This document shows, in pieces, positions 8,064 through 24,806 of a stretch of DNA of 47,888 nt. Each line of letters starts with the position of its first letter. Positions within the stretch are counted from its first letter, which is position 1. Source of the DNA: Propionibacteriaceae bacterium (GTDB lineage Bacteria > Actinomycetota > Actinomycetes > Propionibacteriales > Propionibacteriaceae); contig JAIRYW010000044.1 of assembly GCA_031267645.1 (NCBI GenBank), positions 1 to 47,888 of the forward strand, in the 5' to 3' direction. The notes below the pieces were generated by a model. It was not told where the DNA came from and did no database searches. It was given only the letters and a program-made list of their open reading frames with translations. The position numbers and the translations under genes were made by a program.

Positions 8064-8651
8064 GCCAGCTTCGCCGCGTCGGAACCGGTCCGCCGCCCGG
8101 CCCGGTCGATGTGATCATTTGCTTGGCGGCAGTCGTTTGGCCTTGAGCTTCGCCAGCTCTTCGGCGACGGCTCGGTGGCCGGCTCCGCCAGTCTGTTTGG
8201 CACTAGGCCTTTCACTCGACGGAACGCGTGCTGACAGCCCCCCGCGGTGTCGCGCCGGAACTCGGCCCACAATGGACTACTGCGATGTGCGACCGAGGCG
8301 TGTCGCCGGCGGGGCGTTGGTTCAATGAACCAGGCGGCGATGACCATGAGTCAGATTGATATTGCGGCAGGGAGCTGTCCCAGACCGTGGTCCACAAGTC
8401 TGTCTGAGACAGCTCCGTGTCCGACGACCTCCGTCGGCGCCACGACGGCCACGACGGTTGAAAGCCGGTCTGGATCGGCCTGTGGCATTGGCTCGGATTT
8501 CCGATTTGACTACGGCGAAGACGGTCCAGTCGAACATAGCTGCGGGGGCTACGGCCCCGGCTGGATCCGGCCGGCGGTCGAGCGGCGGTGGCGTTCGTGG
8601 GTCGCTGTCGGCTGAGGTAGGGCGTCTCAATTAGCCAGACGCGCGGTCGGT
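8064..8651. other. Long gene-free interval before the synthase operon
   Basis: About 590 nt without a convincing gene on either strand. Open frames here have arginine/serine/proline-rich, non-conserved translations. Base composition is less GC-rich than in the neighbours, and the codon-position bias of the flanking genes is lost. Visible structure: a short hairpin GAGCT-N5-AGCTC (8145-8159), a 13-bp inverted repeat with one mismatch (8373-8385 with 8402-8414), and GCGTCT/AGACGC (8622-8627 with 8637-8642). It may hold regulatory sites, an unrecognised small RNA, or decayed sequence at an island boundary. Confidence 0.5.
8373..8414. repeat. 13-bp inverted repeat in the gene-free interval
   Basis: AGCTGTCCCAGAC (8373-8385) and GTCTGAGACAGCT (8402-8414) pair at 12 of 13 positions around a 16-nt loop. 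There is no T tract, and the repeat is remote from any stop codon. It could be a regulator-binding dyad or an RNA stem. No function is assigned. Confidence 0.45.
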
Positions 8652-8680
8652 TTGCTTTGGCGCTGACCATTCGCTAGCGT
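8652..8680 (+). promoter_or_regulatory. Candidate promoter of the synthase operon
   Basis: TTGCTT (8652-8657), a 17-bp spacer, then TAGCGT (8675-8680), which fits the actinobacterial TANNNT -10. A start site near 8687 leaves an mRNA leader of about 97 nt before the chosen ATG at 8784. A small stem TTGGC/GCCAA (8758-8762 with 8766-8770) sits just before the ribosome site. Confidence 0.5.
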
Positions 8681-8783
8681 CAACTTGCTCGTCGAGCCTC
8701 CCGGCGATACAGCCTTATGTAGCCGATCTGGTGTGCTTCCAGGCACGGTGAATGTCCTTGGCGGTGCCAACATTGAAGGGATT

Positions 8784-11700
8784 ATGACCACGAACCGTCG
8801 TCTGAAGGCCCAAGAGGTCGTCATCGTGTCCCCCCTGGAACAGCCCGATCCGGAATTGGCCTTGGCCGCCGCCCGAGCCGGGGCCGCTCCCATGTTGGCT
8901 CTGGGCCGGGACCTCACCGCCGCCCGGACCGCCTTGGAGCGATTGTCCGATTCAACCGCCGAACGGTTCGGAGTCAGTTTCGTCGTCCCTTTGCCGGGGT
9001 TGCGCTTGCCCGCCCAAGTGTCCCGGGCCCTGTTGCCGTGGGGGATGGAAGTCGATCTTCCCGACTGGGTCGAACCGTGTTGGCAGGTCCATGACGTCGA
9101 AGAGGCCGCGCAAGCTTTGGCGGCCGGGGCCAGTTCGATCGTGCTGAAGGGCAACGAAGGGGCCGGATTGGTCGGTTCTGAATCGACCTTCGTCCTGTTC
9201 CAGCGCATCGTCGAAGCCGCCGGCCAGGCGGGCGCACGACTGTTCGTCCAAGGCGGCGTGGGCGTCCACAGCGGGGCGGCCTACCTGAATTTGGGAGCCC
9301 ACGGCTTGGTCTTGGACTCCCAGATCGTGCTGTTGCCCGAGTGCCGGGTCCCGAAAGAACTCCAGGACCGTTTGGCTCGGCTCGACGCCAACTCCACCAT
9401 GCTGGTGGGCGGGCGCCGGGTGCTCAAATGGCCCGCCGGGCCCAAACTCGGCTCGGAAGCGACCCCGCAGGCGGTGGCCGCTCGGCTGGGCGGGCTCGAC
9501 CTGGAACACGATCTGATTCCTTTGGGACAGGACTTCGCTCTGGCCGGGGATTGGCGACGCCGATACGGTCGCTTGGACGCCTTGGTGCGCGCCATCCAAG
9601 AGGCCGCTTGGGGGCATGCCCGCCAGGCCCAGCGTCGCCCAGCTTTGCGCCGCGACAGCGAGTTGGCCCGGGCCCATGGCACGGCTCTGCCCATCGCCCA
9701 GGGCCCCATGGCACGGGTCTCCGACGAGCCAGAGTTCATCGCCGCCGTCTCCCAGGCCGGGGCCCTGCCGTTCCTGGCCATCGGCTTGGCCGACCCGGAG
9801 GCGACGACGGCTCTGGTCGAACGGACCGCCGCCCGTTTGGCCGGCCAGCCCTGGGGGGCGGGTCTGCTCGGGTTCATCCCACCGGCCCTGTTCGACGAAC
9901 AGGCTCGTCGGGTGGTCCAGGCCGCTCCGACCGCCGTGGTGATCGCGGGCGGCCGACCGGCCCAAGGCAAGCTCTTCGAACGAGCCGGCATAGCGGCCTT
10001 CTTACATGTGCCGTCAGCCACCTTGCTGTCCCAATACTTGAACGAGGGCGCCCGACGCTTCATTTTCGAGGGCCGGGAATCCGGCGGACACGTCGGACCG
10101 TTGCACTCGACCGTCCTGTGGGAACGTCAATTGCTGACGTTGCTCGATTTCCAGAAGCCGGACGACTTGGAGGCCTACTTCGCCGGGGGCGTCAACGACG
10201 CCTTGTCTTCGGCCTTCGTCTCGCTGATGGCGGCTCCGCTGGCGGCTCGCGGAGCCAAGGTCGGCGCCCTCATGGGCACGGCCTATCTGGCCACGGTCGA
10301 GGCGGTCGCCAGCGGGGCTATCACCCAAGATTTCCAAGACCAGGTCTTGTCCGCCCAGAGCACCGTCTTGTTGGAGTCGGTCCCAGGGCAGGAGACCAGG
10401 GCTTTGCCCACTCCGTTCACCGAGTTCTTCGAGGCCGAGAAACGACGGATCTCCGCCACCGCCGTCGAACCGTTGGACAAGCGTCGGGCCTTGGAGGAGC
10501 TGAACCTGGGCCGGGCCCGTATCGCCTCCAAAGGGACCGACCGGTCTGGTCCGTTGCCGCTGGCCCGCCGGCGGACGGAAGGCCTTTACATGTCGGGCGC
10601 GATCACTCCCTTGATCACGCGGGCGACCGACCTGGAACGGCTCCACCGCGCCGTCACCGACGACGCCGCCCAACTGTTGGCCGAGTTGGACGTGCCCCCG
10701 ACGCCGCCTAAGACCGCCGCCGGTGTCGAACCGATCGCCATCATCGGCTTGGCCGGAGTCTTCCCCGACGCCGCCGACGTGCATGAGTTCTGGCGCAATT
10801 GCCTGATCGGCCACGACGCCATCAGCGAGGTGCCTGTGGCCCGCTGGGACCCGGAGCAATTCTTCGACCCCGACAGCGACGACACCGACAAGGTGGTGAG
10901 TAAGTGGGGCGGCTTCATCGGGCCGACTGAATTCGATCCCTTGGAGTTCGGCATCGCGCCCGGTTCGATGCGGTCCATCGAAACCGCCCAGTTGATCTCG
11001 CTGATGGTGGCCAAGCGGGCCTTGCAAGACGCCGGCTACGCTGATCCGGCCCTGCCCATCTTGGAGGACACCTCGGTCATCTTCGGCGCCGTGGCCCAGG
11101 GCGAACTGGCCAACTCCTATGGTTCGCGCTCCGGGGTGCGCAGCCTGTTCGGCAGTTTGCCCCAGCGGGTCGACCAACAGTTGCCCAAGGTGGACGAGGA
11201 CTCCTTCGCCGGCATCTTGTCCAATGTCATCTCCGGGCGGATCGCCAACCGTTTGAACTGTCGGGGGCGTAATTTCACGGTCGACGCCGCCTGCGCCTCG
11301 TCCTTGGCCGCTCTCGACGTGGCCTGCAACGAGCTCTGGGCCGGCCGGGCCCGGATGGTCCTCTGCGGTGGGGCCGACTTGCACAACGGCATCGTCGATT
11401 ACGTCATGTTCAACGCCACGCGGGCGCTGTCCCGCCAGGGCCGCAGCGCCGCTTTCGACGAGTCCGGCGACGGACTGGCCCTGGGCGAGGGCGTCGGCGT
11501 CGTGGTGCTGAAACGCTTGTCCGACGCCGAGCGGGACCAGGACCGGATCTACGCCGTGGTCCGGGGCATCGACGGCTCCTCCGACGGCCGTTCGCTCGGT
11601 CTGACCGCCCCCAACATGTCGGGCCAGAGCCAGGCCCTGCGCCGGGCCTACCGCACCGCCGGAGTGTCGCCGGCCCAGCTGGGTCTGCTGGAGGCCCACG

Positions 11701-14700
11701 GCACCGGCACCGCGGTCGGGGATCGCACCGAGTTGGCCGCCCTGCAACAGGTCCTATTGGACGCCGGCGCCCTGCCCGGCCAAACCTGGATCGGTTCGGT
11801 CAAAACCCAGATCGGCCACACTAAGTCCGCCGCCGGTCTGGCGGGCACGATCCGGGCCGCTCTCAGCCTGTACCACGGCGTGATCCCGCCGACGCTGCAC
11901 TTGAAGCGTCCGGTGGCGGTCCACACCCCGGATCTGAGTCCGTTCCGTTTCAACGCCGGCGGGCACGCCACGGTCTGGCCAGCCGACCGGCGGGTGGCTG
12001 GCGTCAGCGGCTTCGGCTTCGGCGGCACCAATTTCCACGCCGTGCTGGAGAATTACGCCGAGGTGCCCGACCAGCCGATCATGGCCGCCTGGCCGCGTGA
12101 GCTGTTCGTCTTCCGGGGCCAGACCCGGGAGGCGGCCCAGGCCCGCCTGAGCCAGGTCTTGGAGGCGCACCGGGCCAACCCCAGACTGGTCTTGCGCGAC
12201 GTGTCCTACTCACTGTTCCGCCAGAGCGCGGAACCGGTCCAAATCGCCATCGTGTCCGGCTCTTGGAACAAACTGGTGGCCAAGATCGGCTTGGCCCTGG
12301 AGGGCAAGCCCGGGCCGGGCCTGTTCTACCGCGATCCTTGTCCGGGCAAGGTGGTCTTCCTCTTCTCCGGCCAAGGCAGCCAACGGGTCAACATGGCTCG
12401 GGAACTCTTCGTCATGTTCCCCCGTCTGCGCCACGCCCTGGCCCGGCACCCGGAGTACCAGAGCGTCGTCTTCCCCGACTCGCGCTTCGACGGCCCCGGC
12501 CGCCAAGCCCAGCGTCAAGCCGTCACTGACACCCGCAACGCCCAACCGCTGCTCGGTTTCGTGGACCTGGCCATCGCCGAGTTGCTGACTAGTTTGGGCG
12601 TCGTCCCCGACGCGGTGGCGGGCCACTCCTACGGCGAACTGCCGGCCCTGGTCCACGCCGGCGCCATCGATCCAGAGGATCTGCCGGCTCTGTCCCGCGC
12701 CAGGGCCGAGGCCATCTTGGCCCAGGTGGGCGACGACGCCGGGCGGATGGCGGCCGTCGCCGCCAGCGCCGAATCGGTTCAGACCCTGCTGGACGGAGTG
12801 GAGGGCGTCTGGGCCGTCAACTTCAACGCCCCGACCCAGACCGTCGTGGCCGGGACCAGCGCCGGCCTCGAGCAGTTCTTAGAACGTTGTCAAGCCCAAG
12901 GCGTCGAAGCCAAGCCGATCGAGGCCGCCTGCGCCTTCCACAGCCCCTTGTTGGCCGGGGCCGATGCGGCTTTCGGCGAGGCTTTGGCCGGGCTGGAGAT
13001 CGATCGCCCGCGGCTCACGGTGTGGTCCAACACCACCGCCCAGCCCTATCCGGACCAGCCCAGCCAGATCCGTCAGCGTTTGGCCGAGCACCTGGTCAAC
13101 CCGGTGCGGTTCGCCGAAGAGCTACGGGCCATGTACGACGACGGCGCCCGTGTCTTCATCGAGGCTGGACCGGGCGGCGTGTTGACCGGGCTGGTCGAGG
13201 CCACCTTGGACGATGTGGTGGCGATCCGGACCGAGCAGCGCGACGGTTTCGGACTGCGGACCTTCCTGCGCGCTCTGGGAAAGTACGCCGCCAGCGGCCG
13301 CGACTTCGACTACGAGCCGCTCTTCGCCGGCCGCGGCGCGAGAGCGCTGGATCTGGCCGACGCGGCCGGCCAGGCTCCGTCGGCCACCACCTGGGTGCTC
13401 GACGGCGTGGAGGCGCTGCCGCTGACGCAGTGGCGTGAACAAGGCGAACAGCACATCGCACGCGGATTCAACTACGACTTCGACGCTTTCGAGCGATTCA
13501 CGACGGAGAATGAGGAAATGGCACAGGTCCAGCCGAATAATAATTCCGAGGCGTTGGTCTTCGCCTACCTGCAGAACATGCGGGCCATGTTGGACGACCA
13601 ACGTGACGTCATGCTGGGCTACCTCGGCTACGGCCAGGCCTATGTCCCGGTCGGTGTCGACCAGGCGTCCGGCGGATACCCCGCCGCCCCCATCGGATAC
13701 CCGCCGGCGCCGGCTCTGGCTCCGCCGGCGGCTTGGCCGGCCCCGCCTCCGACGCCGCCTCTGGCCCAGCCCGGAGCGGTCCCGGCCGCGGCTCCGCCGC
13801 TGGACGTCCCGGCCGTCGCAACGGACCCCGGCGCCGCCCCCGCCGCCGTCGGGCTGCCTCGGATCGAGGATCTGTCGGCTGACCAACTGCGCGCGGTCAT
13901 CGTCGAGGTGGTGGCGGAGAAGACCGGCTACCCGGCCGACATGCTCGGATTGGACATGGATCTGGAAGCCGATCTGTCGATCGACTCGATCAAGCGTTTG
14001 GAGATCATCGGTTCGCTGGGGGAGCGCATGATCATTCCGGAGCCGGAGTCCGCTGACAGCGGCGAGGCGGTCTCCGCTTTGGAGAGGCTGACCGCCATCA
14101 AGACGCTGCGCGGCATGGTCGACTGGCTACAGGAGCTGGCCAGCGGCGAACCGGGGACGCCCGCCCCGGCGGCGGAGACCGTAGCGGCGGCGGAGACCGC
14201 CCCGTCTTCGGACGCCCCGACCGGGCCGGCCGTCCCGCCCCCGTCCGCCCCGGAGCCGACTCCAGCCCCGGTCGTCTCCCAAGACTCTCTGACCGCCGCC
14301 TTCCGCTCCTCGGCGGCTGGCGGCCGAGCGACCGAGATCACCCGCCTGAGCTGGCGGGTCGAGGCCTATCCGCTGGCTCAGACAGGTTCGCTCGACATCG
14401 GCGGGCAGCGCGTCGCCGTGGTCGACGACGGCTCCGGCCTGGCCAGCCGCATCGCCGCCGGTCTGACCGAACTCGGCGCCGTGCCCGTCCTGGTGGACGA
14501 TCCGACCACGCCCGAGTTGAGCCAATGCGACGCCCTGATCGGACTGGGAGCGGTCGCGACTGGGCGGTCCTGGTCGGTGGCCGACCTCTTCGCCCTGCTC
14601 AAAGGCATGGATTTGGAACGGGTGGCCTGGGTGCACGTCTTCGACGACACCCCGGGCGCTCTGCTGGACCGGCGGCTGACCGACTTGGAGCGGTTGTCCG

Positions 14701-15791
14701 GTCTGCCCGGTTTCCTCAAGACCCTGGCCCAGGAGTACCCCGGGATCAGGTTCAAAGCCGTCACCGGACTGACTGAATTCGACTTGGACACCATCGTCGA
14801 CACGGTCCTGGGCGAGGCGACCGACCCGGGCCTCTACCCGGAGGTCTACTACCGCGACGGTCAGCGCTGGCGCCATCTGCCCGAGGTCTCGGCTCTGGTC
14901 GAATCCGACCCGGTGGGCCAGATCGCGGAGCTGGAGGCCGAGTCGGTGGTGCTGGTGCTGGGCGGGGCGCAAGGCATCTCGCCTAGCTTGGTGGCCCAGG
15001 TGGCGGCCGCCAACCCCTGCCGCTACATCCTGGTCGGGCGCACCGAACGAGACCAGGCCGAGGCCGGCCGCTATCCCAGCGGGCTGAGCCGTGACCAGCT
15101 GCAACGCCACATCCTGGAGACCGACCGCCCGGCCAGCCCCAAGGAACTGAGCCAGCGAGTGGCCAAGGTGGCCAAGCTCTTGAGCGTCGAGGCCGCCTTG
15201 GCCTTGATCGAACAGGCCGGCGGACGGGCCGACTACATCAGCGCCGACCTGCGCGACGACCAAGCCCTGCGCCAGGTGGCCGAGCGGGTCAAAGCCGAGC
15301 ACGGACGGCTGGACGCCGTCTTCCACGCCGCCGGCGTCTTGGAGGACAAGCTGTTCAAGGACAAGACCTGGGACTCCTTCGAGCGGGTCTACGGCACCAA
15401 GACCGCCCCCTTGAAGGCGCTCGGCGAACTGGCCCGGGAGTTGCGCCTGGTGGTGTTCTTCTCCTCCATGGCGGCCGCCTTCGGCAACCGGGGCCAGTGC
15501 GACTACGCCGCCGGCAACTCGGCCCTGGACCAGGCCGCCCAGGTGCTGACGGCGGTCGGCCCGGCTCGGGCCCTGTCCATCGCCTGGGGGCCGTGGCAAG
15601 GGGCCGGCATGGTGTCGCCGGCGCTGGCGGCCGAGATGGGTCGGCGCGGGATCGATCTGATCCCGCTGGAGCAGGGGTCAAAGTTCTTCGCCCGGGAAGT
15701 GGCCCACGGCGCCGGCCCCGGCACGATGGCCTTGGCCGGCCCGGTCCAAGACATCCAGCGCTTCATCGACCACAGCCTGGCGACTCGCTGA
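8784..15791 (+). CDS. Iterative type I PKS/PUFA-like synthase subunit A: NPD-NPD-KS-AT-ACP-KR
   Basis: Megasynthase of 2335 aa. Domains in order: a degenerate nitronate monooxygenase/PfaD-like TIM barrel (about 12-215); a fuller one (about 300-555) with PIAQGPMARVSD and FEGRESGGHVGP, the FMN enoyl-reductase type; a ketosynthase (647-1090) with Cys837 in DAACASS plus EAHGTGT and KTQIGHTKSA; an acyltransferase (1187-1480) with GQGSQ and Ser1282 in GHSYGE; a Pro/Ala linker; one carrier domain (1695-1780) with LSIDSIKR and Ser1735; and a ketoreductase (2030-2285) with Tyr2241 in QCDYAAGN. It should extend an acyl chain with ketoreduction and probably enoyl reduction, while dehydration lies in subunit B. 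I chose ATG 8784 (GAAGGG just upstream, close spacing) because the upstream in-frame TTG adds residues unlike the domain. Subunit B follows after 10 nt. Confidence 0.9.
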   Translation: MTTNRRLKAQEVVIVSPLEQPDPELALAAARAGAAPMLALGRDLTAARTALERLSDSTAERFGVSFVVPLPGLRLPAQVSRALLPWGMEVDLPDWVEPCWQVHDVEEAAQALAAGASSIVLKGNEGAGLVGSESTFVLFQRIVEAAGQAGARLFVQGGVGVHSGAAYLNLGAHGLVLDSQIVLLPECRVPKELQDRLARLDANSTMLVGGRRVLKWPAGPKLGSEATPQAVAARLGGLDLEHDLIPLGQDFALAGDWRRRYGRLDALVRAIQEAAWGHARQAQRRPALRRDSELARAHGTALPIAQGPMARVSDEPEFIAAVSQAGALPFLAIGLADPEATTALVERTAARLAGQPWGAGLLGFIPPALFDEQARRVVQAAPTAVVIAGGRPAQGKLFERAGIAAFLHVPSATLLSQYLNEGARRFIFEGRESGGHVGPLHSTVLWERQLLTLLDFQKPDDLEAYFAGGVNDALSSAFVSLMAAPLAARGAKVGALMGTAYLATVEAVASGAITQDFQDQVLSAQSTVLLESVPGQETRALPTPFTEFFEAEKRRISATAVEPLDKRRALEELNLGRARIASKGTDRSGPLPLARRRTEGLYMSGAITPLITRATDLERLHRAVTDDAAQLLAELDVPPTPPKTAAGVEPIAIIGLAGVFPDAADVHEFWRNCLIGHDAISEVPVARWDPEQFFDPDSDDTDKVVSKWGGFIGPTEFDPLEFGIAPGSMRSIETAQLISLMVAKRALQDAGYADPALPILEDTSVIFGAVAQGELANSYGSRSGVRSLFGSLPQRVDQQLPKVDEDSFAGILSNVISGRIANRLNCRGRNFTVDAACASSLAALDVACNELWAGRARMVLCGGADLHNGIVDYVMFNATRALSRQGRSAAFDESGDGLALGEGVGVVVLKRLSDAERDQDRIYAVVRGIDGSSDGRSLGLTAPNMSGQSQALRRAYRTAGVSPAQLGLLEAHGTGTAVGDRTELAALQQVLLDAGALPGQTWIGSVKTQIGHTKSAAGLAGTIRAALSLYHGVIPPTLHLKRPVAVHTPDLSPFRFNAGGHATVWPADRRVAGVSGFGFGGTNFHAVLENYAEVPDQPIMAAWPRELFVFRGQTREAAQARLSQVLEAHRANPRLVLRDVSYSLFRQSAEPVQIAIVSGSWNKLVAKIGLALEGKPGPGLFYRDPCPGKVVFLFSGQGSQRVNMARELFVMFPRLRHALARHPEYQSVVFPDSRFDGPGRQAQRQAVTDTRNAQPLLGFVDLAIAELLTSLGVVPDAVAGHSYGELPALVHAGAIDPEDLPALSRARAEAILAQVGDDAGRMAAVAASAESVQTLLDGVEGVWAVNFNAPTQTVVAGTSAGLEQFLERCQAQGVEAKPIEAACAFHSPLLAGADAAFGEALAGLEIDRPRLTVWSNTTAQPYPDQPSQIRQRLAEHLVNPVRFAEELRAMYDDGARVFIEAGPGGVLTGLVEATLDDVVAIRTEQRDGFGLRTFLRALGKYAASGRDFDYEPLFAGRGARALDLADAAGQAPSATTWVLDGVEALPLTQWREQGEQHIARGFNYDFDAFERFTTENEEMAQVQPNNNSEALVFAYLQNMRAMLDDQRDVMLGYLGYGQAYVPVGVDQASGGYPAAPIGYPPAPALAPPAAWPAPPPTPPLAQPGAVPAAAPPLDVPAVATDPGAAPAAVGLPRIEDLSADQLRAVIVEVVAEKTGYPADMLGLDMDLEADLSIDSIKRLEIIGSLGERMIIPEPESADSGEAVSALERLTAIKTLRGMVDWLQELASGEPGTPAPAAETVAAAETAPSSDAPTGPAVPPPSAPEPTPAPVVSQDSLTAAFRSSAAGGRATEITRLSWRVEAYPLAQTGSLDIGGQRVAVVDDGSGLASRIAAGLTELGAVPVLVDDPTTPELSQCDALIGLGAVATGRSWSVADLFALLKGMDLERVAWVHVFDDTPGALLDRRLTDLERLSGLPGFLKTLAQEYPGIRFKAVTGLTEFDLDTIVDTVLGEATDPGLYPEVYYRDGQRWRHLPEVSALVESDPVGQIAELEAESVVLVLGGAQGISPSLVAQVAAANPCRYILVGRTERDQAEAGRYPSGLSRDQLQRHILETDRPASPKELSQRVAKVAKLLSVEAALALIEQAGGRADYISADLRDDQALRQVAERVKAEHGRLDAVFHAAGVLEDKLFKDKTWDSFERVYGTKTAPLKALGELARELRLVVFFSSMAAAFGNRGQCDYAAGNSALDQAAQVLTAVGPARALSIAWGPWQGAGMVSPALAAEMGRRGIDLIPLEQGSKFFAREVAHGAGPGTMALAGPVQDIQRFIDHSLATR

Positions 15792-15801
15792 GGAGCGGTC
15801 C

Positions 15802-18800
15802 ATGACAACGCCAGTCCAAGACATCGCCATCGTCGGCCTCTCCTTGGCTTGCCCGGGCGCCCAAACGGTGGGGGAGTTCTGGCGCAATCTGCGCGACGGC
15901 GTCGACTCCATCGTCGACACTCCTGAAGAGGTCATCGAAGAGGCCTACTTCAACGCCTCACAGGCCGGTCAGCCGGACCGCTTCGTCTGTCGTAAGGGTG
16001 GGTTCACGCAGTCCGGGATAGTCGATTCGATGCGCTTCGGAGTGCTGCCGGTGGTGGCCGAAGGGGCCGACCCCGACCAGCTGCTGTCGCTGATGTTGAC
16101 CGAACAGGCTCTGCACGACGCCGACGTCTTGGAGCGGGGTCTCCCGTTGCAGAACGCCGCCGTCATCATCGGGCGGGGTAATTTCGCCGGCGCGCCGCAA
16201 CTGCGGGCCACTGAGATCGTGCGCATGGCGGAACAGTTCACCGGACTGATCGGCCACGCTCTGCCCGAACTGACCGAAGCGCAGTTGGAGCGCATCCGTC
16301 GCGGCTACCAGAAACTGCACGGCCGTTATCGCGGCGACACCGCCACAGCCACGATGCCGAGCCTGGTGGCCTCGGTGGTGGCCCACCACTTCGACATGCA
16401 CGGCCCGGCCTGTGTCGTCGACGCCGCCTGCGCCTCTGGCATCGTCGCCCTGCAGCAGGGGGCCCAGCTGCTGACCAGCGGGGAGTGCGACCTGGCCGTG
16501 ATCGGCGGTATGCACACCCCGCACAGTTCGGTTTTCTGGAGCGCCTTCAACCTGATGGGGGCGCTCAGCCGCAATCAGCGGATCGCCCCTTTCAGCGCCG
16601 AGGCGGACGGTCTGTTGATCGGTCAAGGGGCCGGCTTCATGGTGATCAAGACCTTGGAACGGGCGGTGGCCGACCAAGACCGGATCTACGCCGTGGTCAA
16701 AGGCATCGCCGTCGGCTCCGACGGCGGCGGCCACTCGCTGCTGACCACCGACGTCGAGGGCCAGTCCCGAGTCCTGCGGCGGGCCTGGCGGCAGTCCGGC
16801 CTCGATCCGGCTGACGTGTCCTACATCGAGGCCCATGGCACCGGCACGCCGGTCGGTGACGCCACTGAGATCGAGACGCTGACCCAAGTCTTCGGCGACC
16901 AGTCGGCCCGACGGGCCTATCTCGGCTCGGTCAAGTCCAATATCGGCCACCTGATGCCGGCGGCCGGAGCGATGGGTCTGATCAAGACCGCCTTGGCCCT
17001 GTTCCACCGCCAGATCCCACCCACCTTGCACTGTCAGCGGCCGCGTTCGGAACTGCTCCGATCCAGATTCGAGGCCGTGTCAGAGGTGGTCGACTGGGAA
17101 GCGGCGGGACTGCCGCTGATCGCCGGGGTGGACGCTTTCGGTTTCGGCGGGATCAACGCCCACGCCGTGTTGACCGCTTACGAGGAGCCGCCTCGTCAGC
17201 GGGCCCGCTATCGGGCCGCCCGGCGCCGTCACGACGCCTTGGCCGTCTACGCCTTCGCCGCCCCCGATCAGGCCGGATTGCTGGCCAAGATCGATTTCAG
17301 AGCCAACCCCAGCCGGGTCGGCGGCTGGCTGGGCCAAGACTCGGACCGTTACCGGCTGGTCGTCTTCGATCCCACGCCGGAGCGGATGGACCAAGCCATC
17401 GAGATCGTCAGGCGGGACCAGCCCTGGCTGGGACGCGGCGACATCTGGTTCACCAACCAGCCGCTGCTGGCCGACGGCGGTCAGATGGCCTTCATGTTCC
17501 CGGGCTGGAACGACAACGTCCCCGTGGAGCACGAGTCCGTCGAGGACGAGCTGGGCCTGGTCTGGTCCGGCCGTGAGGTGGAGGACGACGAACTGGGCTA
17601 CCACCGGCGCAGCATGGACCTCTTCAGCGCCTCTCAGTTCATCGACCAGGCGCTGCGGACGACTGGGGTGGAGGCGGACCTGTACACCGGGCACTCGGTC
17701 GGCGAATGGCACGCCGCCCGGGCCTGCGGCATGCTCGACCAGAGCTTCGACCAGTCCAACACCGACTTCTCCGACAAATACTTCGGGGCGGTGTCGCTTT
17801 CCGAACTGCCCGACTGCCATTTGCTGGCCGTGTCCGGCGGTCTGACCCCAGCCCAATGGGACGCCCTCGTCGAGTCGATCCCGGGGGTCTACCTCCCCAA
17901 CGACAACTGCCCCAGTCAGAAGGTGCTGTGCGTCCTGCCGCCGGCCCTGGACCAGCTGACCGCTCGACTGACCGCCGCCGGCTGCCGTTTCCAAACCCTG
18001 CCCTGGTCGACCATCATCCACACGTCGCTGATGGAGCCCTTCAAGGACTATTCGTCCGAGGCCATGGGCGGGGTGGCGGTCCACCCCGGCCGCGTCCCCC
18101 TTTGGTCCGCCATCACCTTGGCCCCGGTGGCGGCGGACGGGCGCGACGCGGCCGAGGTCTTCGGCAGTGAGCTGAGGCGGCCGGTCCGGTTCCGCCAGTT
18201 GATCGAGCGGCTGTACGACGAGGGCGTGCGGGTGTTCGTCCAGGTCGGCGTCGGCACTCTGCCCGGTTTCGTGGACGACACTCTGCGGGACCGGCCCCAC
18301 GTCGCCCTGCCCTCGCTCAGCCCCCGGCGTCCGGCGATCGAACAACTGCGTCGAGTCCACGCCATGCTCTATGTCATGGGGGGAGCGGCCGACCTGGATT
18401 TCATGGGCATGGGACCGATCCACCGCAGCTTGAAGAGCGCTCATCTGCTGCCGCGCGGCTACCCGCTGATGGTCAAGTTGGACGAGTTGGACGAGATCCT
18501 GGCCGGGTTCGGACCTAAGACGGATGGCTCCGGCGCGGCTTCGCCGGGCGGTGTTCCGTCCGCCGACCGGACGCTGATCGCTGTGCCGGCTGAGGCCGAC
18601 CCCGCTCTGCGCGCTCTGGACGACAACGTGCGGGCGGCGCTGGACGGTCAGGAGCAGGTGGTCCAGGCCTGGCGGGGGACTCCTGTCGCCGCCGCACGAC
18701 GGGTGATCGCGCCGCGTGGCTTCAGCCGCGGCCTGGCCGCGGGCTGGCTAGCGCCACCGCCGGACCAGGTCCGGGCCACGGGCCCGCAGCGGCCGTTGGC

Positions 18801-20469
18801 GGCTTCGGCGTACCCTGCCCCGCCGACCGCCGCCACAGCCCAGCCCGTTCCGCCGCCCGCTGTTCCGTCACCCGTCGTTCCATCGCCCGCTGTTCCGTCC
18901 GTCGCGCCGACCGCCGCCGCGACCGGTCCGGCGCCGTCCGCTCCCGCAGCGTCCCCAACGGTTCCGCCCCGCCGGGCCGGGAGTCGTTTCGAGGTTCCGC
19001 TCCACCTCAGCGTCGATGACTATCCGTTCTTGATCGACCACTCGTTGGTGAACCAACCGGTGGGCTGGCCCATCTCCGGCGACCTGTTGACAGTCGTGCC
19101 GCTGACCATGAGCCTGGAGTTGTTGGCCGAGATCGCGGCCGCCCAAGCGCCCGAGCTGAAGGTGGTCAAACTCGGTTCCATCCTGGCCACCGAGTTCATC
19201 CAGGTCAATCAACCGTGGGACGGCGTGGTCAAGGGCCTGTGGAAGAGTGAGAACCTGATCGGGCTGTCCCTGCCGGGCAAGCTGATGCTGGACGTCACCT
19301 TGGCCGAGGACTACCCCGAGGCCCCGTCTGATTTCGTCGAACGGGCCAAGACTGACATCGGTCCACCGGATTTGGAGCCGCTCGGCCGGGAGGAGCAGTA
19401 CACCACCTACGCCTTCCACCGTTCGCGCTACTGGTCGATGATGCGGACCGAGGTCTCCGGGGAGCATGGCTTCCACAACATCGTCCAGGCCCAAGAGGGC
19501 AAGGGCTCTCTGCTGGACCAGATGGGCCAGGCCATCGGGCTCTACCTGCACCTGCACGCCGAGAACGACCGGATCTCCTTCCCGGTGCGGGTCGGGTCGG
19601 TCACCTTCTATCAGGACCGCACCGACCAATCCGGACTGTTCGACCACTACTGCGTCATCCGTAAAGTGACCGACAATTTCATCATCGGCGACTGCGTCTA
19701 CACCCGCGACGGCCGAGTCTGGGCCATCGCCCGCGACTGGGTGAATCAGCGCGTCGGCACGGACAACGCCGTCTGGGGAGTGTTGAACACGCCCTGGCGC
19801 GAGCTGATCGCCACCCCCATAGCCGACAATGTGCATTATTTCGCTAGCGCCACTCCCAACCGTCAGAACATGATCTTCTGCTTCATGCGCTACCTGACCC
19901 AGCGGGAGAAGAAGGAGGGGCTGGAGGTGACCAACGACGCCCTGAGGGCGGACTACCTGGCCGGACGCATCGCCCTCAAAGACGCCGTCCGCCACTTCCT
20001 GCGCCGTCCCGGGGGCCCGCTGATGTATCCGATCGAGATCGACACCCACTACGACGACTCCGGCAAGCTCTTCGTCAAGGGGAACTGCCAGGAGCTGGAG
20101 CGTCCGGTCCAGGTCTCGCTCGCCCACAAACACGGCCGGGCGGTGGCGGTGGTATCCGACCAGCCGGTCGGCGTCGACATCGAAGCGGTCGAGCCCAAGT
20201 CCGAAGGCTTCCGCCGGCAGGCCTTCAGCGCCGGCGAGTTGGCTCTGCTGGAGGCCGCGCCGGACTTGGACGAGTGGGTGATCCGGTTCTGGTGCGCCAA
20301 AGAGGCCTATGGCAAGATGCTCGGTGTCGGGCTGGCCTTCGATCCCAAGCGTCACCAGATCGAAAGAGTCGATGGTGAGGACGTCTTCATCGCCGGCCGG
20401 CGGATCCGCACGGTCCGGCAAGACGAGGGCTACGCGGTGGCCTGGACCATGGACGGAGATCACCGATGA
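15802..20469 (+). CDS. Iterative PKS/PUFA-like synthase subunit B: KS-AT-DH-PPTase
   Basis: Protein of 1555 aa. The ketosynthase (8-460) keeps Cys210 (DAACASG) and both histidines (EAHGTGT, KSNIGH), so it is not an obvious chain-length factor. The acyltransferase (about 560-855) has Ser632 in GHSVGEW but FPGWNDN in place of GQGSQ. A Pro/Ala/Val linker (about 900-1055) precedes a double-hotdog dehydratase (about 1063-1340) with His1080 (IDHSL) and Asp1239 with Gln1243 (DxxxQ). The C-terminus is an Sfp-type phosphopantetheinyl transferase with VGVDIE (Asp1459, Glu1461) and WCAKEA from Trp1497, which would activate the carrier domains. DH followed by PPTase mirrors the end of enediyne PKSs, while KS-AT-DH recalls PfaB/PfaC. 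The stop overlaps the ACP start (ATGA). Confidence 0.9.
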   Translation: MTTPVQDIAIVGLSLACPGAQTVGEFWRNLRDGVDSIVDTPEEVIEEAYFNASQAGQPDRFVCRKGGFTQSGIVDSMRFGVLPVVAEGADPDQLLSLMLTEQALHDADVLERGLPLQNAAVIIGRGNFAGAPQLRATEIVRMAEQFTGLIGHALPELTEAQLERIRRGYQKLHGRYRGDTATATMPSLVASVVAHHFDMHGPACVVDAACASGIVALQQGAQLLTSGECDLAVIGGMHTPHSSVFWSAFNLMGALSRNQRIAPFSAEADGLLIGQGAGFMVIKTLERAVADQDRIYAVVKGIAVGSDGGGHSLLTTDVEGQSRVLRRAWRQSGLDPADVSYIEAHGTGTPVGDATEIETLTQVFGDQSARRAYLGSVKSNIGHLMPAAGAMGLIKTALALFHRQIPPTLHCQRPRSELLRSRFEAVSEVVDWEAAGLPLIAGVDAFGFGGINAHAVLTAYEEPPRQRARYRAARRRHDALAVYAFAAPDQAGLLAKIDFRANPSRVGGWLGQDSDRYRLVVFDPTPERMDQAIEIVRRDQPWLGRGDIWFTNQPLLADGGQMAFMFPGWNDNVPVEHESVEDELGLVWSGREVEDDELGYHRRSMDLFSASQFIDQALRTTGVEADLYTGHSVGEWHAARACGMLDQSFDQSNTDFSDKYFGAVSLSELPDCHLLAVSGGLTPAQWDALVESIPGVYLPNDNCPSQKVLCVLPPALDQLTARLTAAGCRFQTLPWSTIIHTSLMEPFKDYSSEAMGGVAVHPGRVPLWSAITLAPVAADGRDAAEVFGSELRRPVRFRQLIERLYDEGVRVFVQVGVGTLPGFVDDTLRDRPHVALPSLSPRRPAIEQLRRVHAMLYVMGGAADLDFMGMGPIHRSLKSAHLLPRGYPLMVKLDELDEILAGFGPKTDGSGAASPGGVPSADRTLIAVPAEADPALRALDDNVRAALDGQEQVVQAWRGTPVAAARRVIAPRGFSRGLAAGWLAPPPDQVRATGPQRPLAASAYPAPPTAATAQPVPPPAVPSPVVPSPAVPSVAPTAAATGPAPSAPAASPTVPPRRAGSRFEVPLHLSVDDYPFLIDHSLVNQPVGWPISGDLLTVVPLTMSLELLAEIAAAQAPELKVVKLGSILATEFIQVNQPWDGVVKGLWKSENLIGLSLPGKLMLDVTLAEDYPEAPSDFVERAKTDIGPPDLEPLGREEQYTTYAFHRSRYWSMMRTEVSGEHGFHNIVQAQEGKGSLLDQMGQAIGLYLHLHAENDRISFPVRVGSVTFYQDRTDQSGLFDHYCVIRKVTDNFIIGDCVYTRDGRVWAIARDWVNQRVGTDNAVWGVLNTPWRELIATPIADNVHYFASATPNRQNMIFCFMRYLTQREKKEGLEVTNDALRADYLAGRIALKDAVRHFLRRPGGPLMYPIEIDTHYDDSGKLFVKGNCQELERPVQVSLAHKHGRAVAVVSDQPVGVDIEAVEPKSEGFRRQAFSAGELALLEAAPDLDEWVIRFWCAKEAYGKMLGVGLAFDPKRHQIERVDGEDVFIAGRRIRTVRQDEGYAVAWTMDGDHR

Positions 20470-20747
20470 AGCTGTCGCAGGAGCGGGTGTTGGCCGACCT
20501 GGTGGACGCCCTGGGCCAGGTCATGGGCCAGGACACCATCGCGGTGCTGCGGGTGGACGAACGCACCCGGGTGTTCGGCGAGTTGGAGCTGGGCTCCATC
20601 GAAATGGTGCAAGTGCTGGACGTCCTGAGCGACCGCTACCCGCTGGGCGACGAATTCCTGGAGTGGTTGGCGCAGAAACCGGCCTTAACGCTGGCCCGGC
20701 TGCGGGTCGGCGACATCGTCAGGCACATCGTCGATGCCTCGGATTGA
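20466..20747 (+). CDS. Free-standing acyl carrier protein
   Basis: A 93-aa protein with the size and helical pattern of a carrier protein. The segment FGELELGSIEMVQVLDVL resembles the helix-II region, with Ser44 in LGSIE as the candidate 4'-phosphopantetheine site; the usual D(S/L) context is replaced by G-S. It starts inside the stop of subunit B and its end overlaps the next gene by 14 nt, so it is part of the same translationally coupled operon. It could be a starter-loading or intermediate-shuttling carrier, or could present the product to the hydrolase. Which one is not visible. Confidence 0.75.
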   Translation: MKLSQERVLADLVDALGQVMGQDTIAVLRVDERTRVFGELELGSIEMVQVLDVLSDRYPLGDEFLEWLAQKPALTLARLRVGDIVRHIVDASD

Positions 20748-22551
20748 GGTCGCCGGGCGTCAGGTCTATGTCCAAGACCTGAATCCGAAGGCCGACGAGT
20801 GCGTCATCATGGTCCACGGCATGATGACGAACCACACCGTCTTCCACCGCTGCGGCGCCTTCCGGCTGAGGCGGCGCTTCCGGGTGGTCCTGTACGACTT
20901 GCGGGGCCACGGCTTGACCGGGTCGGACGGCCGACCGCCCGACCTGAGCTTGGCCACCCTGGCCGGCGACCTGTTCGACCTGATGGACGCCCTGGGCCTG
21001 GCCCGGGCCCACTTGGTCGGCTACAGCTTCGGCGCCGCCGTCGTGCTGCGGGCGGCCCTGGCCCAGCCCGACCGGGTGGACCGGATCGCCTTGGTCGAGC
21101 CCTTCGGGCTGAACGCCCAGACGGTGGACGATTTGCCGGGTGTCGAGGCCGTGCGGGCGGACGCCGACCGCGCCCTGCGCGCGTACGGCGTCGCCACCGG
21201 CCGGGACGACCGGCGGATCGAACTGGCGGTCAAACAGTTCTTGGCCCTGACCCAGGAGGACGCCCTGGGGCGGGCGCTGCGTCAAGACGCCGATTTCTTC
21301 GCCACCGCGGCGCTGCCCGAGCTGTCCCACCCGGTGCTGTTGCTGAACGGCCACTCCTCGCCCTACCTGGCCGACGCCGACCTGGCCCACCGACGGCTGC
21401 CGCACAGCGAGTCGCAGCGGACCCGGGGCGACCACAATCTGCCCGTCACCAAGGCGACCTGGGTCCAAGACCTGCTCTGGCAGTGGTTCGGACGGGTCGA
21501 TCGGCGGAGCGGCGACCAGCCGGAGCCGGTGGCCGACCGTCCGCCGGCCGGTCCGGTCCGGTTGGCCCGTCGGGCGATCGACGCCGACGCCCGGGAGAAC
21601 CGGGCGCCGGCCAGCCCCGTGCCGGCCATCCGGGTGCGCGGACTGCGTAAGGACTACGGCCGGGTGCGGGCCGTCAAAGGGATCGACTTCGAGGTCCCGC
21701 AAGGCTGTTTCTTCGCTTTCTTGGGCGTCAACGGAGCCGGTAAGTCCACCACGATCAAGTGTCTGATCACCTTGCTGCGGCCGGACGCCGGCGAGGTCGA
21801 AGTGGCCGGCCAGCGCTTGGGGCGGGCCGATCAAGCCATCCGCGACGCCATCGGCGTCGTCTTTCAGAACTCGCTGCTCGACCGCAGCCTGACCGTGCGG
21901 GAGAATCTGGAGCTGCGGGGGCGCCTCCAGGGGGTGGCGGAGTCGCGGCGGCGGGAACGTATCGTCGAATTGGACCAGATGCTGGGCCTGGGCCAGACCA
22001 TGGACCGCCGCTACGGCCGGCTGTCCGGCGGCCAGCAGCGGCGGGTCGACATCGCACGGGCTTTGTTGCACGACCCGGTGGTGCTGTTCTTGGACGAGCC
22101 GACGGCCGGTCTGGACCCCCAAAGCCGCGAGCAGGTCTGGCGGGCGGTGGAGGAGGTCCGCCGATCCCAGGGCATGACGGTCTTCTTGACCACCCACTAC
22201 ATGGAGGAGACCGAACGGGCCGACTTGGTGTCGGTCATCGACTCCGGGCAGATCGTGGCCCGGGGGACGCCGGGCCAGCTGCGCTCCCAGCATTCCAAAT
22301 CTGAATTGACTTTGCGTCTGTCCGGTCCGACCCAGACGGCCGCCTTCCTGGCCGCCCTGCCCAATGAGGTGGAGCTGGTGTCGGCGGCCGACTCGCTGCG
22401 CTTGCGCCTCAGCACCACCGCTCAGGCCAAGTGGCTGCTGGAACGGTGGTGGCCCGACCTGGTCGATTTCGAGTTCCGACACGGATCGATGGACGACGTC
22501 TTCTTGAGTCTGACCGAGACCGGGGCTGGCTCGGACAGGGTGGTGGCATGA
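20734..22551 (+). CDS. Alpha/beta-hydrolase fused to DrrA-type ABC exporter ATPase
   Basis: A 605-aa two-part protein. Residues 1-255 form an alpha/beta-hydrolase with the oxyanion-hole motif VHGM, nucleophile Ser98 in GYSFG and candidate His234 in GDHNLP. The catalytic acid is not obvious because the usual Asp position reads GHSSPY. After a linker of about 40 residues, 298-605 form an ABC ATPase: Walker A GVNGAGKST (331-339), LSGGQ (430-434), Walker B ending Asp454-Glu455, then TTHYMEE. The order suggests thioesterase-like product release tied physically to export with the permease encoded next. The frame is uninterrupted and both halves keep their motifs, so this is a real fusion rather than a sequencing join as far as the sequence shows. 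Confidence 0.88.
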   Translation: MPRIEVAGRQVYVQDLNPKADECVIMVHGMMTNHTVFHRCGAFRLRRRFRVVLYDLRGHGLTGSDGRPPDLSLATLAGDLFDLMDALGLARAHLVGYSFGAAVVLRAALAQPDRVDRIALVEPFGLNAQTVDDLPGVEAVRADADRALRAYGVATGRDDRRIELAVKQFLALTQEDALGRALRQDADFFATAALPELSHPVLLLNGHSSPYLADADLAHRRLPHSESQRTRGDHNLPVTKATWVQDLLWQWFGRVDRRSGDQPEPVADRPPAGPVRLARRAIDADARENRAPASPVPAIRVRGLRKDYGRVRAVKGIDFEVPQGCFFAFLGVNGAGKSTTIKCLITLLRPDAGEVEVAGQRLGRADQAIRDAIGVVFQNSLLDRSLTVRENLELRGRLQGVAESRRRERIVELDQMLGLGQTMDRRYGRLSGGQQRRVDIARALLHDPVVLFLDEPTAGLDPQSREQVWRAVEEVRRSQGMTVFLTTHYMEETERADLVSVIDSGQIVARGTPGQLRSQHSKSELTLRLSGPTQTAAFLAALPNEVELVSAADSLRLRLSTTAQAKWLLERWWPDLVDFEFRHGSMDDVFLSLTETGAGSDRVVA

Positions 22552-23441
22552 CTGCAGCGCTGGTTCTGTTGGGTCGGCATCTGAGGATCTTCGGACGCGA
22601 ACCGATCACGGTCTTCTTCTCCATCTTGTCGCCCTTGGTGCTGTTCTTGCTCTTCATCCTCTTCTTCCGGGAGAACACGGCCGGCTCCATCGCCGAATTG
22701 ATCCCCCTGGCTCCGAAGGACGACGCCTACGCCCTGTGCGACGCCTGGATGTTCTCATCGGTCGTGACCTTGGCCACCTTTTCCTCCTCGCTCGGGCTGT
22801 TGACCGCTTTCGTGGAGGACCGGGTGTCGGGACGGTTCGGGGACTGTCTGATCACCCCGGTCCGGCGTTGGCAGCTGGCCATCAGCTACGTGGCCTGCTC
22901 CTTCGTCGTCTCCTTCACCATCTCGGCTCTGTTCGGAGGGCTGGGGCAGGTCTGGGCCGCCGCCGTCGGCCAGCCCTTGATGTCGGTCCCGGCCTTCGGC
23001 CGGATGCTGGGCGCCACGGCGGTCTGCTGTTTGTTCTACGCCGCCTTCAACACTCTGATCGTCACCTTCACCTCCACCCCCGGCTCGTTTAGCGGCTACT
23101 CGGTGGTGATGGGCACCGCCATGGGTTTCTTGACCTATTGCTACGTGCCGCCGAGCACGCTGTCCCAGGGCATCAGACGGGTGCTGGAGCTGATGCCGTT
23201 CGCCCAGGGGGCGGCTGCCGTCCGGGAACCGGTCATGACGCCCGCCATCGAACAGCTGGCGCGGTCGGTCCCGCCGGAGGGACAGGACCAGGTGCGGCGG
23301 CAGCTGCTGGATGATTTGGGGGCTCACCTTCAGGTGGGCGGGCACGACCTCACGAGCACGCTCATCGTCGTCATCCTGGCCGGTCTGACCGTCCCGCTGG
23401 CGATTCTGATCGCTTGGCGCATGAACAAGGTCATCCGCTGA
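22548..23441 (+). CDS. ABC-2 type transporter permease (DrrB-like)
   Basis: A 297-aa membrane protein with about six hydrophobic segments, including ITVFFSILSPLVLFLLFILF near the N-terminus and LIVVILAGLTVPLAILIAW at the C-terminus. It resembles drug and lipid exporters of the DrrB family. The ATG at 22548 overlaps the stop of the hydrolase-ATPase gene (ATGA), so the two halves of the exporter are coupled. It presumably exports the polyketide or lipid product. It is the last gene of the five-gene operon and is followed by a hairpin. Confidence 0.88.
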   Translation: MTAALVLLGRHLRIFGREPITVFFSILSPLVLFLLFILFFRENTAGSIAELIPLAPKDDAYALCDAWMFSSVVTLATFSSSLGLLTAFVEDRVSGRFGDCLITPVRRWQLAISYVACSFVVSFTISALFGGLGQVWAAAVGQPLMSVPAFGRMLGATAVCCLFYAAFNTLIVTFTSTPGSFSGYSVVMGTAMGFLTYCYVPPSTLSQGIRRVLELMPFAQGAAAVREPVMTPAIEQLARSVPPEGQDQVRRQLLDDLGAHLQVGGHDLTSTLIVVILAGLTVPLAILIAWRMNKVIR

Positions 23442-23445
23442 GCCC

Positions 23446-23472
23446 GGCCGACCAGGCCCGATCGGGTCGGCC
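23446..23472 (+). terminator. Hairpin at the end of the synthase operon
   Basis: GGCCGACC (23446-23453) and GGTCGGCC (23465-23472) form an 8-bp stem starting 5 nt after the permease stop, with no T tract. This is a probable 3' end of the operon, facing a convergent gene. Confidence 0.5.
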
Positions 23473-23531
23473 AGTTCGATCCGGTCATCCGGCCGACCCT
23501 GTCTGATCCGATCGATCCGGTCTGATAGTGG

Positions 23532-23557
23532 GGTGGGCCCGGCTGGCCGGACCCACC
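23532..23557 (-). terminator. Hairpin at the end of the isomerase-like gene
   Basis: An inverted repeat pairs 23532-23543 with 23546-23557 at 11 of 12 positions around a very short loop. It lies about 12 nt beyond the minus-strand stop at 23569. It is the likely terminator for the isomerase-like gene. Confidence 0.5.
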
Positions 23558-23568
23558 TCGTCAGTCGA

Positions 23569-24555
23569 TCAGCCCTGGGCGGTGTCGAGCAGAGCGTCTT
23601 GGACCACCCGCTGGGCGGCCATGGCGTCTTGAGCGGCTTGGGCTTGGCGCAAGGCCGCCACGTCCAGTCGGTCGAGGGCGCGGTGGAGCGCCTTGAGGGT
23701 GCGGATGGAGGTGCGGGCGGCGTCGACCGGGTCCTCCCGGAAGGGGAACTGGTCGAGTTGCCAGACGCCCTCCCAGTCGTTGATGCGCAGGGTGTGGAAG
23801 AACTCGAAGATCTCGGTCAGATGGACCGTGCCGACCACCAGGTCGTCGTCCCAGCCGCGCAAATTGTCGTTCACGTCCATGCCGTAGAGCAGGCCGTGGT
23901 CGATCAGCAGCTGGGCGGCGTCGGCCGGCGACTCGCCGCCGTAGAGGGAGTGGCCGAAGTCGAGCAGGACGCCGACATTGTCCAGGCCGATCTGTTGGAT
24001 GCCGATGATGGAACGGGCGGCCGAATCCCAGGTCATCTTGACGCGGGGCTCGCGCGGCTTGTACTCGATGGCGAATTTGAGGTCCGGGTGGCCGGCGGCC
24101 AGTTCCCTCATGCCGTCCACAGCCAACCGCCAGAGGTCGCCGTGGTTGACTTGGAAGGGATAGTCCCAGCCGTCCTGGCCGGGCCAGATCTTGACGTACT
24201 GGGCGCCCAACTGACGCACCACGTCGGCGGCCTGGTTCATCAGTTCCAGGGCGGCCCGGCGGGCGGCCGGATCCGGGTTGGTGAAGGCGCCACGGCAGAA
24301 GCGGCGCAGATAGATCTCCGGCGTCACGCCGATGGCGCTCAGCCCTTGGGCGGCCAAGGCGTCCTTGACCTCGTCCAAGCCGACGCCGGGAGTGAAGGGG
24401 TAATTGAGGTCGACCACCGACAGGTCGCCGACTGAGCCGGCCAGTTCGATGGCCTCGATGGTGGTGCGGGGAGGTCCGTAACCGTCGACGGCGTAACGGT
24501 CGACGTAGCTGGCGAAGTGCCACAGACCAGCGCCAAAACGGGGATAGTCAGTCAT
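23569..24555 (-). CDS. Sugar isomerase/epimerase-like TIM-barrel protein
   Basis: A 328-aa protein of the xylose isomerase-like TIM-barrel superfamily. Motifs expected to carry divalent-metal ligands are visible: Glu in [11 protein letters not shown], Asp/His in [11 protein letters not shown], and Asp in [21 protein letters not shown] near the start and [17 protein letters not shown] also fit sugar isomerases of this group. The substrate is not certain. Given the rhamnosidase, importer and kinase under the same operator type, an L-rhamnose or related ketose/aldose isomerase is plausible. The start at 24555 has AAAGGAAA upstream. It is divergent from the glycosidase-like gene, and one operator overlaps both -35 boxes. 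Confidence 0.82.
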
Positions 24556-24688
24556 GATGGTGTTTCCTTTTACGTTCGCTGCGATGCCCGGCCGGAGCAG
24601 CCGACTGAGGCCTGGGCCGCCCTTCTCAGGGGCTGGCCCAGGTCTTCTCGTCTAGGTCGTCACGACGCTGTTCCCACCTTGCGGGACC

Positions 24689-24731: not shown

Positions 24732-24806
24732 CGGGTCATCGCCAGCTCCGCGGGTCTTCGAGAACGGCCTCGAAGGGGACCGGGGCCGGTGACGGGAGGA
24801 GGACTC

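Follow-up and report, generated by a model that had tools for sequence, protein, structure and literature searches.

What does a bacterium make with a synthase whose parts recall both enediyne polyketide synthases (PKSs) and polyunsaturated fatty acid (PUFA) synthases? The question is raised by a five-gene operon in the stretch of Propionibacteriaceae bacterium DNA analysed here (47,888 nucleotides, assembly GCA_031267645.1, contig JAIRYW010000044.1, positions 1 to 47,888 of the forward strand; hereafter the window), in which two large subunits, A and B, are followed by a free acyl carrier protein (ACP), a hydrolase fused to an ATP-binding cassette (ABC) ATPase, and a permease. Our comparisons indicate that the operon probably encodes a complete secondary-lipid synthase with its own exporter, belonging to the PfaDA plus PfaBC-phosphopantetheinyl transferase (PPTase) kind and related to ArsA/ArsD, with the exporter in the place that a glycosyltransferase (GT) takes elsewhere. 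The five genes are as follows:

8784..15791, forward strand: subunit A, a PfaD-PfaA fusion resembling ArsA, NPD1-NPD2-ketosynthase (KS)-acyltransferase (AT)-ACP-ketoreductase (KR); open frame, Pfam and comparison
15802..20469, forward strand: subunit B, KS-AT-dehydratase (DH)-PPTase; open frame, Pfam and comparison
20466..20747, forward strand: free ACP; open frame, comparison with homologues, conserved Ser
20734..22551, forward strand: alpha/beta hydrolase (20734-21513) fused to a DrrA-like ABC ATPase (21619-22533); Pfam
22548..23441, forward strand: ABC-2 permease; Pfam and comparison

This layout had been proposed in an earlier reading of the sequence (hereafter the original prediction), and it was borne out by the open frames, Pfam and comparison, as were the overlaps of 4, 14 and 4 nt among the last four genes; the spacing between A and B is 10 nt. 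For subunit A, the ATG at 8784, with GAAGGG directly upstream, is a likelier start than the TTG at 8685, and for the permease, which stops at 23441, the ATG at 22548 is likelier than the GTG at 22431, the first possible start. Pfam models matched KS, AT, ACP, KR and one NMO/FabK-like domain in A, KS, AT and PPTase in B, an alpha/beta hydrolase and an ABC ATPase in gene 4, and an ABC-2 permease in gene 5, while NPD1, DH and the free ACP fell below the Pfam cut-offs and were called by comparison. The best NCBIfam match of A was TIGR02813 PfaA (846 bits, under the cut-off of 1010), and the ATPase part of the hydrolase-ABC fusion scored 262 bits with the drrA model, under its cut-off of 312. The same genes are encoded by L008 (MAG: Propionibacteriaceae bacterium TD116_bin43; G, C and L numbers are our handles for genomes, contigs and loci), in which the hydrolase and the ABC ATPase are not fused. 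Identity to the window is 51% over nearly the whole length of both A and B, 37% for the ACP, 37% for the hydrolase, 58% for the ABC ATPase and 51% for the permease, so the arrangement is not due to chance. Along the two subunits the domains are:

8811..9644, forward strand: NPD1, FabK/PfaD-type, lacking the catalytic His, putatively an inactive partner; paralogy to NPD2, His in 0/13
9657..10490, forward strand: NPD2, FabK-type enoyl reductase (ER) with a GGH motif; Pfam, FabK 2z6i at E 1.5e-12, His in 14/14
10725..12062, forward strand: KS of A (KSa), intact Cys-His-His, in the ArsA-type KS group; residues and tree
12345..13307, forward strand: AT of A (ATa), malonyl-type, GHSYGE, Arg present; Pfam and residues
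13869..14090, forward strand: ACP with LSIDSIK; Pfam and residues
14325..15719, forward strand: KR with Ser, Tyr and Lys; Pfam and residues
15814..17199, forward strand: KS of B (KSb), Cys-His-His present and hence not a chain-length factor (CLF), nearest PfaC KS; residues and tree
17422..18381, forward strand: AT of B (ATb), Ser and His kept, malonyl-binding Arg absent; residues
18982..19851, forward strand: DH, ArsD-like, with a putative fold and conserved His and Asp; comparison and residues
19897..20448, forward strand: PPTase with GVDIE and WCAKEA; Pfam and residues

Jointly, A and B therefore carry one malonyl-type AT, two KS domains with intact residues, KR, DH, one intact FabK-type ER, an ACP and a PPTase. 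The expectation of a split, self-activating synthase was met by the PPTase on board and by the presence of KR, DH and ER, and the predicted PUFA-type ACP motif, LSIDSIK, is found in subunit A. The KR Ser, Tyr and Lys, the PPTase Asp and Lys and the ACP Ser were each kept in 14/14 sequences, as were the His and Asp of DH in 14/14 compared sequences, the window included; the DH itself gave only a sub-threshold PS-DH match (E 0.065), and it aligns over its length with ArsD-type proteins. The free ACP of the window had no Pfam match even at E 1, and Pfam assigned PP-binding to the homologues from L008 and L010; the free-ACP Ser was conserved in 12/12 sequences, and the Ser and His of the hydrolase in 11/11. 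NPD1 and NPD2 proved to be paralogues (hhalign probability 97%, E 7e-11, alignments of 23 and 31 rows; reversed control 0.4%), and in the family alignment the catalytic His was present in 0/13 NPD1 and 14/14 NPD2 domains, the lower count arising because the Rhodobacteraceae relative SC52 gave no NPD1 row. The available part of PMC13311796 describes a heterodimer of two TIM-barrel ER domains, each with its His and on separate polypeptides, as a feature of thraustochytrid synthases alone; judged by their residues, tandem NPDs with one His lost are a further two-ER case.

The two ATs differ in the malonyl-binding Arg, which was found in 20/20 ATa-type domains (including those of PfaA, Ars and SgcE) vs 0/11 ATb domains, in which Ser and His are kept. 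These counts leave out three partial matches (L019, L045 and L049) in which GHSxG could not be read, and the SC52 AT, with Cys at the Arg column, was kept apart from the 11. PfaB, reported as a terminal long-chain acyltransferase, is likewise described without the malonyl Arg in the accessible text of PMC12895367. As for the PPTase, the P1b' motif hShxH, reported for Types M, N, O, P, R, S and T in the part of PMC3098273 available, occurs as VSLAH in the window, with its Ser replaced by Thr in one relative (G398). The P1a motif x(G/D)xP, which the same text reports in all examined secondary-lipid types except Photobacterium and which is not specific to Type M, does not fit the window (SGKL, vs GRP in five alignment partners).

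To which known synthases is this one related? We built a KS tree of 40 rows, in which two CLF rows and the Embleya PfaC are long branches. The KSa domains of the family (11 rows) formed one clade (97/93), which was joined first by the SC52 row from Rhodobacteraceae (97/83) and next by two Ars rows (93/88). The PfaA rows (100/100) stood apart from these, and so did the pair of SgcE and Gloeothece (100/100). The latter two rows are the only representatives of the enediyne synthase PksE, with Gloeothece as PksE-like being our own label and SgcE identified from its record (C-1027 plasmid SGLP1, SgcE6 as neighbour). Forcing KSa together with this pair made the tree 18.3 log units worse and was rejected by the approximately unbiased test (p-AU 0.0095). 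The KSb domains (9 rows, 100/99) adjoined the PfaC KS (93/75). The DH-PPTase part pointed the same way as KSa, in that a profile of 21 DH-PPTases of the family gave 315 bits to the Beijerinckia and 283 bits to the Methylosinus protein (both ArsD-type), 267 to G579 and 185 to SC52, vs 46 to Gloeothece, 34 to SgcE and 18-35 to Pfa proteins. On these scores, the DH-PPTase is ArsD-like, not SgcE-like.

The notion of a system intermediate between enediyne PksE and Pfa is thus not supported, with KSa grouping with ArsA-type synthases, outside PfaA and PksE, and the DH-PPTase resembling ArsD; for KSb, which leans to PfaC, the enediyne link is weakened, being marginally disfavoured (p-AU 0.063). What would speak against the original prediction, namely KS domains in a clade with a known product and identical domain order, was half found: the Ars product is known in Azotobacter, and the Ars relatives compared here are without the KS-AT of B.

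We then asked how widely the operon is distributed and what follows the synthase. A scan of named genomes returned two loci, L008 and L009, the latter a partial 29% match that was not used. With the DH-PPTase piece of the window as query, 5/47 genomes of the family matched at E 0.001, a full match being limited to the window's own genome and G043. A six-sequence DH-PPTase profile matched 10/396 actinobacterial genomes at 1e-20, among them G227 (L041), a lone PPTase and not a member, and 23/391 genomes of the order, including 11/17 listed as the window's own genus. The stretches around DH-PPTase matches were scanned with single-sequence queries; L008 and G043:C32 were taken as one contig and counted once, and L011, a near copy of L010, was left uncounted. 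An ABC ATPase follows the synthase in 11/11 loci of the window's own genus (10) and of genus g8 (1) that reach past it (the G683 locus, which is cut, is outside this count), with the permease seen in 10 of the 11 (the G619 contig ends). Outside the family, by comparison, 18/19 actinobacterial loci (L010 and 17 further genomes) have a GT after the synthase, and G250 has none in view; in L093 (G661), a weak ABC match of 30 bits lies past the GT, in the other orientation. In other actinobacteria the gene order was found for the core of A, B, ACP and hydrolase, and the exporter in the window's genus and g8.

The trees agree with this division. A KSa tree of 36 rows separated 9 ABC rows from 18 GT rows by a 100/100 branch, and the KSb tree concurred (10 ABC vs 14 GT rows, 100/100), three rows labelled PfaC in the latter being PfaA KS domains by motif that serve only as root. 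The hydrolase is fused to the ABC ATPase in 4/11 loci (window, G774, G590 and G718) and separate in 5/11 (G043, G730, G773, G693 and G702). Among the 9 ABC rows, with G666 and G619 (no hydrolase) labelled 'separate' and G773 and G774 left out, fused vs not fused requires 2 changes in a poorly resolved part of the KSa tree. The number of ACPs in A varies from one in the window to 1-3 in relatives, and for L021 (S. cattleyicolor), in which KS-AT and ACP-KR lie in two overlapping frames, only the KS was used.

Some relatives depart from the common layout. In L038 (G235:C42, 1993-12087), A and B form one 3365-aa frame without KSb, in the PksE-like order NPD-NPD-KS-AT-ACP-KR-AT-DH-PPTase. L020 (CP049030.1, the Rhodobacteraceae SC52 plasmid, 11587-26441) has an AT-DH-PPTase subunit with KSb missing, a small ACP-like frame, and dioxygenase and methyltransferase genes. 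The A gene of L082 (G516, 10455-17326), a member of the GT branch, is spread over several frames (NPD1, NPD2-KS-AT, ACP-KR), through decay or assembly error, and L095 (G579, 8875-14360), from the same family, has an ACP match within subunit B and KSb over two frames, with neither GT nor ABC detected.

Is the unit complete at five genes, as had been suggested? Probably so. The window flanks (8.6 kb upstream and 12.5 kb downstream; open reading frames of at least 100 aa) had no match at E 1e-8 in the flanks of 11 other same-family loci, several of whose contigs have little or no flank, which supports, without proving, a unit of five genes. Flanks are common to some relatives (L008-L075, L077-L083 and L085-L087, plus weak matches to L088). 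An empty insertion site between conserved flanks could not be shown, because the isomerase beside the operon (P0007) has matches of only 28-32% in G021 and G043.

Taking these observations together, we propose that the PPTase of B would activate the ACPs, that ATa would load malonyl units and that KSa would elongate the chain on subunit A's ACP, with KSb possibly taking over in late cycles in the manner of PfaC. KR, the DH of B and NPD2 would reduce each unit, and the resulting long acyl chain would, as with ArsA, be fully or mostly saturated; NPD1 would serve as a catalytically dead ER partner that pairs with NPD2 within the polypeptide chain. ATb, PfaB-like in being without the malonyl-binding Arg, could then transfer the finished chain to the free ACP, from which the hydrolase would free it, and the attached ABC ATPase and the permease would carry it out. 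Export of the product had been predicted as well and, given the ABC ATPase and permease, is probable. Since the exporter branch comprises five genes and is apparently complete without tailoring enzymes, its product should be a bare chain. We also put forward, tentatively and with some doubt, a wider proposal in two joined parts: that the exporter branch would make and export its lipid without any tailoring, with release coupled to export through the tie between hydrolase and ATPase, and that the A subunits of both the family and Ars contain an intramolecular FabK pseudo-heterodimer with one catalytic half.

Several points weigh against the reading of a complete lipid synthase with its own exporter. 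We know of no product for any member of the exporter branch, and the exporter could alternatively carry something else or flip a lipid. The support that joins KSb to PfaC is not strong, and forcing KSb with SgcE plus Gloeothece, a grouping absent from the best tree, cost 11.4 log units and was not rejected at 0.05 (p-AU 0.063). Likewise, a group of KSa and the two Ars rows that leaves out SC52, itself a long branch, is absent from the best tree; forcing it costs 3.1 log units and was not rejected (p-AU 0.114). In 4/11 ATb domains (G235, G420, G398 and G138; the window ATb has none nearby) an Arg lies in the adjoining column, so the family-wide loss of the Arg depends on the alignment, and ATb has GHSxG vs GYSxG in PfaB. 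Finally, no hydrolase was found in 2/11 ABC loci (G666 and G619, the latter also without an ACP there), so hydrolytic release is not universal.

Other readings of the operon must be set against this one. PksE comprises KS, AT, ACP, KR, DH and PPTase, and the window would have that domain order if A and B were joined, as truly happens in the single KSb-less frame of G235; one could thus imagine a split enediyne or polyene relative in which the KS-AT-ACP-KR of A and the DH-PPTase of B make a conjugated polyene, and the KSb test leaves room for it. It nevertheless runs into the rejection of KSa with the two PksE rows, a DH-PPTase profile score of 34 bits for SgcE vs 283-315 for ArsD, and NPD2, an intact ER of which no counterpart was found in SgcE, while none of the SgcE partner genes (DUF1702, CRTAC1, thioesterase) is in the operon, and we consider it very unlikely. 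The tree and the approximately unbiased test thus reject the enediyne reading for KSa, and the profile scores do so for the DH-PPTase, but it is not rejected for KSb. A PUFA synthase producing chains like eicosapentaenoic, docosahexaenoic or arachidonic acid for the organism's own membrane would account for the NCBIfam match to PfaA, the PUFA-type ACP motif and the ER, yet KSa lies outside the PfaA clade (100/100), no CLF is present, A has one ACP instead of a tandem array and KSb retains its Cys; the exporter, too, would argue against membrane use. We hold this possibility to be quite improbable, and the PUFA reading was set aside on the missing CLF, the lack of tandem ACPs in the window and the position of KSa.

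The relationship to ArsA and ArsD invites a third thought, that of an ars-like alkylresorcinol or phenolic-lipid pathway served by a type III PKS encoded elsewhere. However, the host genome (2.85 Mb, 76 contigs, 98.56% complete) gave no match to the type III PKS model (PF00195, chalcone/stilbene synthase), whereas 14 control genomes gave 5 matches, 3 of them over the cut-off. Alkylresorcinols are therefore unlikely, and for this genome the idea is nearly refuted, barring an assembly gap or a gene too divergent for the model; we give it hardly any credence. A gene outside the operon might instead supply an enzyme that glycosylates or esterifies the chain, with the ABC pair flipping a finished glycolipid of the GT-branch product class. 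That a GT follows the synthase in 18/19 readable actinobacterial loci outside the family speaks for this, but the ABC-branch operons had no GT match (one Streptomyces GT was the sole query, and the rest of the genome was not searched) and the GT and ABC branches are separate clades, which makes it unlikely in our view. The secondary-lipid synthase with its own exporter remains the reading that we prefer.

Some further observations concern the surroundings of the operon and its genome. Upstream (window 3908-8063) lie an alpha-L-rhamnosidase-like protein and then an FGGY kinase nearest to glycerol kinase, both under the cut-offs of their models, and branched-chain amino acid genes stand on both sides, with acetolactate synthase and ketol-acid reductoisomerase at 342-3695 and branched-chain aminotransferase and citramalate synthase at 36615-39333. 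A scan of 8000-8900 found no sigma-70-like promoter, a result of little weight in an actinobacterium. Besides the operon, a FabF-like frame with a neighbouring ACP-like frame occurs in the genome, so the synthase probably exists as a second system in addition to primary fatty acid synthesis. Two adjoining KS-like stretches at G000:C1:9463-11363 (L004 and L006; 29% and 23% to KSb) are possibly a type II KS pair.

How new is such a system? The synthase architecture itself is not, since PMC13291983, in the part available, describes PfaDA plus PfaBC-PPTase: a fused pfaDA and a pfaBC with a PPTase domain, likened there to an uncharacterised Renibacterium salmoninarum cluster, along with hybrids from Aquimarina and Flavobacterium. 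In 2011, the accessible portion of PMC3098273 (Shulse and Allen) took the kind from genome data and listed it with types whose products were uncharacterised, the Renibacterium salmoninarum cluster being Type M, and PMC13291983 still called this example uncharacterised in 2026. PMC4824345, likewise available in part, is also among the literature cited for the reading that we favour. The new part is apparently the ABC exporter that follows the synthase in the window's genus and one other genus of the family, where other actinobacteria have a GT; the open-licence literature, a scope beyond which lie most subscription papers and all preprints, yielded no description of the exporter branch or of the hydrolase-ABC fusion. 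Expressing about 15 kb in a laboratory host could read out the product, possibly the first chemistry for this kind of synthase, and could show the substrate of the sister-branch glycosyltransferase. It might also reveal whether an exporter can incorporate an enzyme for acyl release.

Compared with known systems, the window differs from PksE, as represented by SgcE, which is a single chain with no ER found, belongs to another KS group and has a barely similar DH-PPTase. With Pfa PUFA synthases it shares the PUFA-type ACP, a PfaD-like ER and an AT without the malonyl Arg as in PfaB, but unlike them it has no CLF (the one KS in B has its Cys), no tandem ACPs and a fused PPTase. Clusters of the actinobacterial GT branch have A, B, free ACP and hydrolase in the window's order and belong to a separate KS clade, with a GT, in some also a methyltransferase, at the position of the window's ABC exporter. 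L010, for example, is 44% identical in A from NPD to ACP and 40% in KR, 38% in the KS-AT and 26% in the DH-PPTase of B, 30% in the hydrolase and 31% in the ACP, and the Streptomyces plasmids NZ_CP108492 and NZ_CP108735 carry A-B-ACP-hydrolase followed by GT and methyltransferase. With the PfaDA plus PfaBC-PPTase kind, by its published description, the window has in common an ER fused before KS-AT-ACP-KR and a KS-AT-DH fused to a PPTase; it differs from the Renibacterium Type M cluster, known here by description only, in the hydrolase-ABC ATPase fusion and permease downstream. The available text of PMC3098273 assigns a Type P (ars) cluster to Beijerinckia indica ATCC 9039, which is not known there to make phenolic lipids, and in our comparison the holder of this cluster appears to be pBIND02, with a like cluster on Methylosinus pMSC49a. 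The known Ars product is that of Azotobacter, and the Ars likeness here rests on the Beijerinckia and Methylosinus sequences. Both plasmids encode NPD-NPD-KS-AT-ACP(s)-KR, a DH-PPTase, type III PKS and ABC genes, the last annotated as permease, ATPase and resistance-nodulation-division (RND)-type adaptor. Unlike the window, they have type III PKS genes and a DH-PPTase without KS-AT, but they share with it the layout of A, the nearest KSa group, a DH-PPTase protein and ABC genes nearby.

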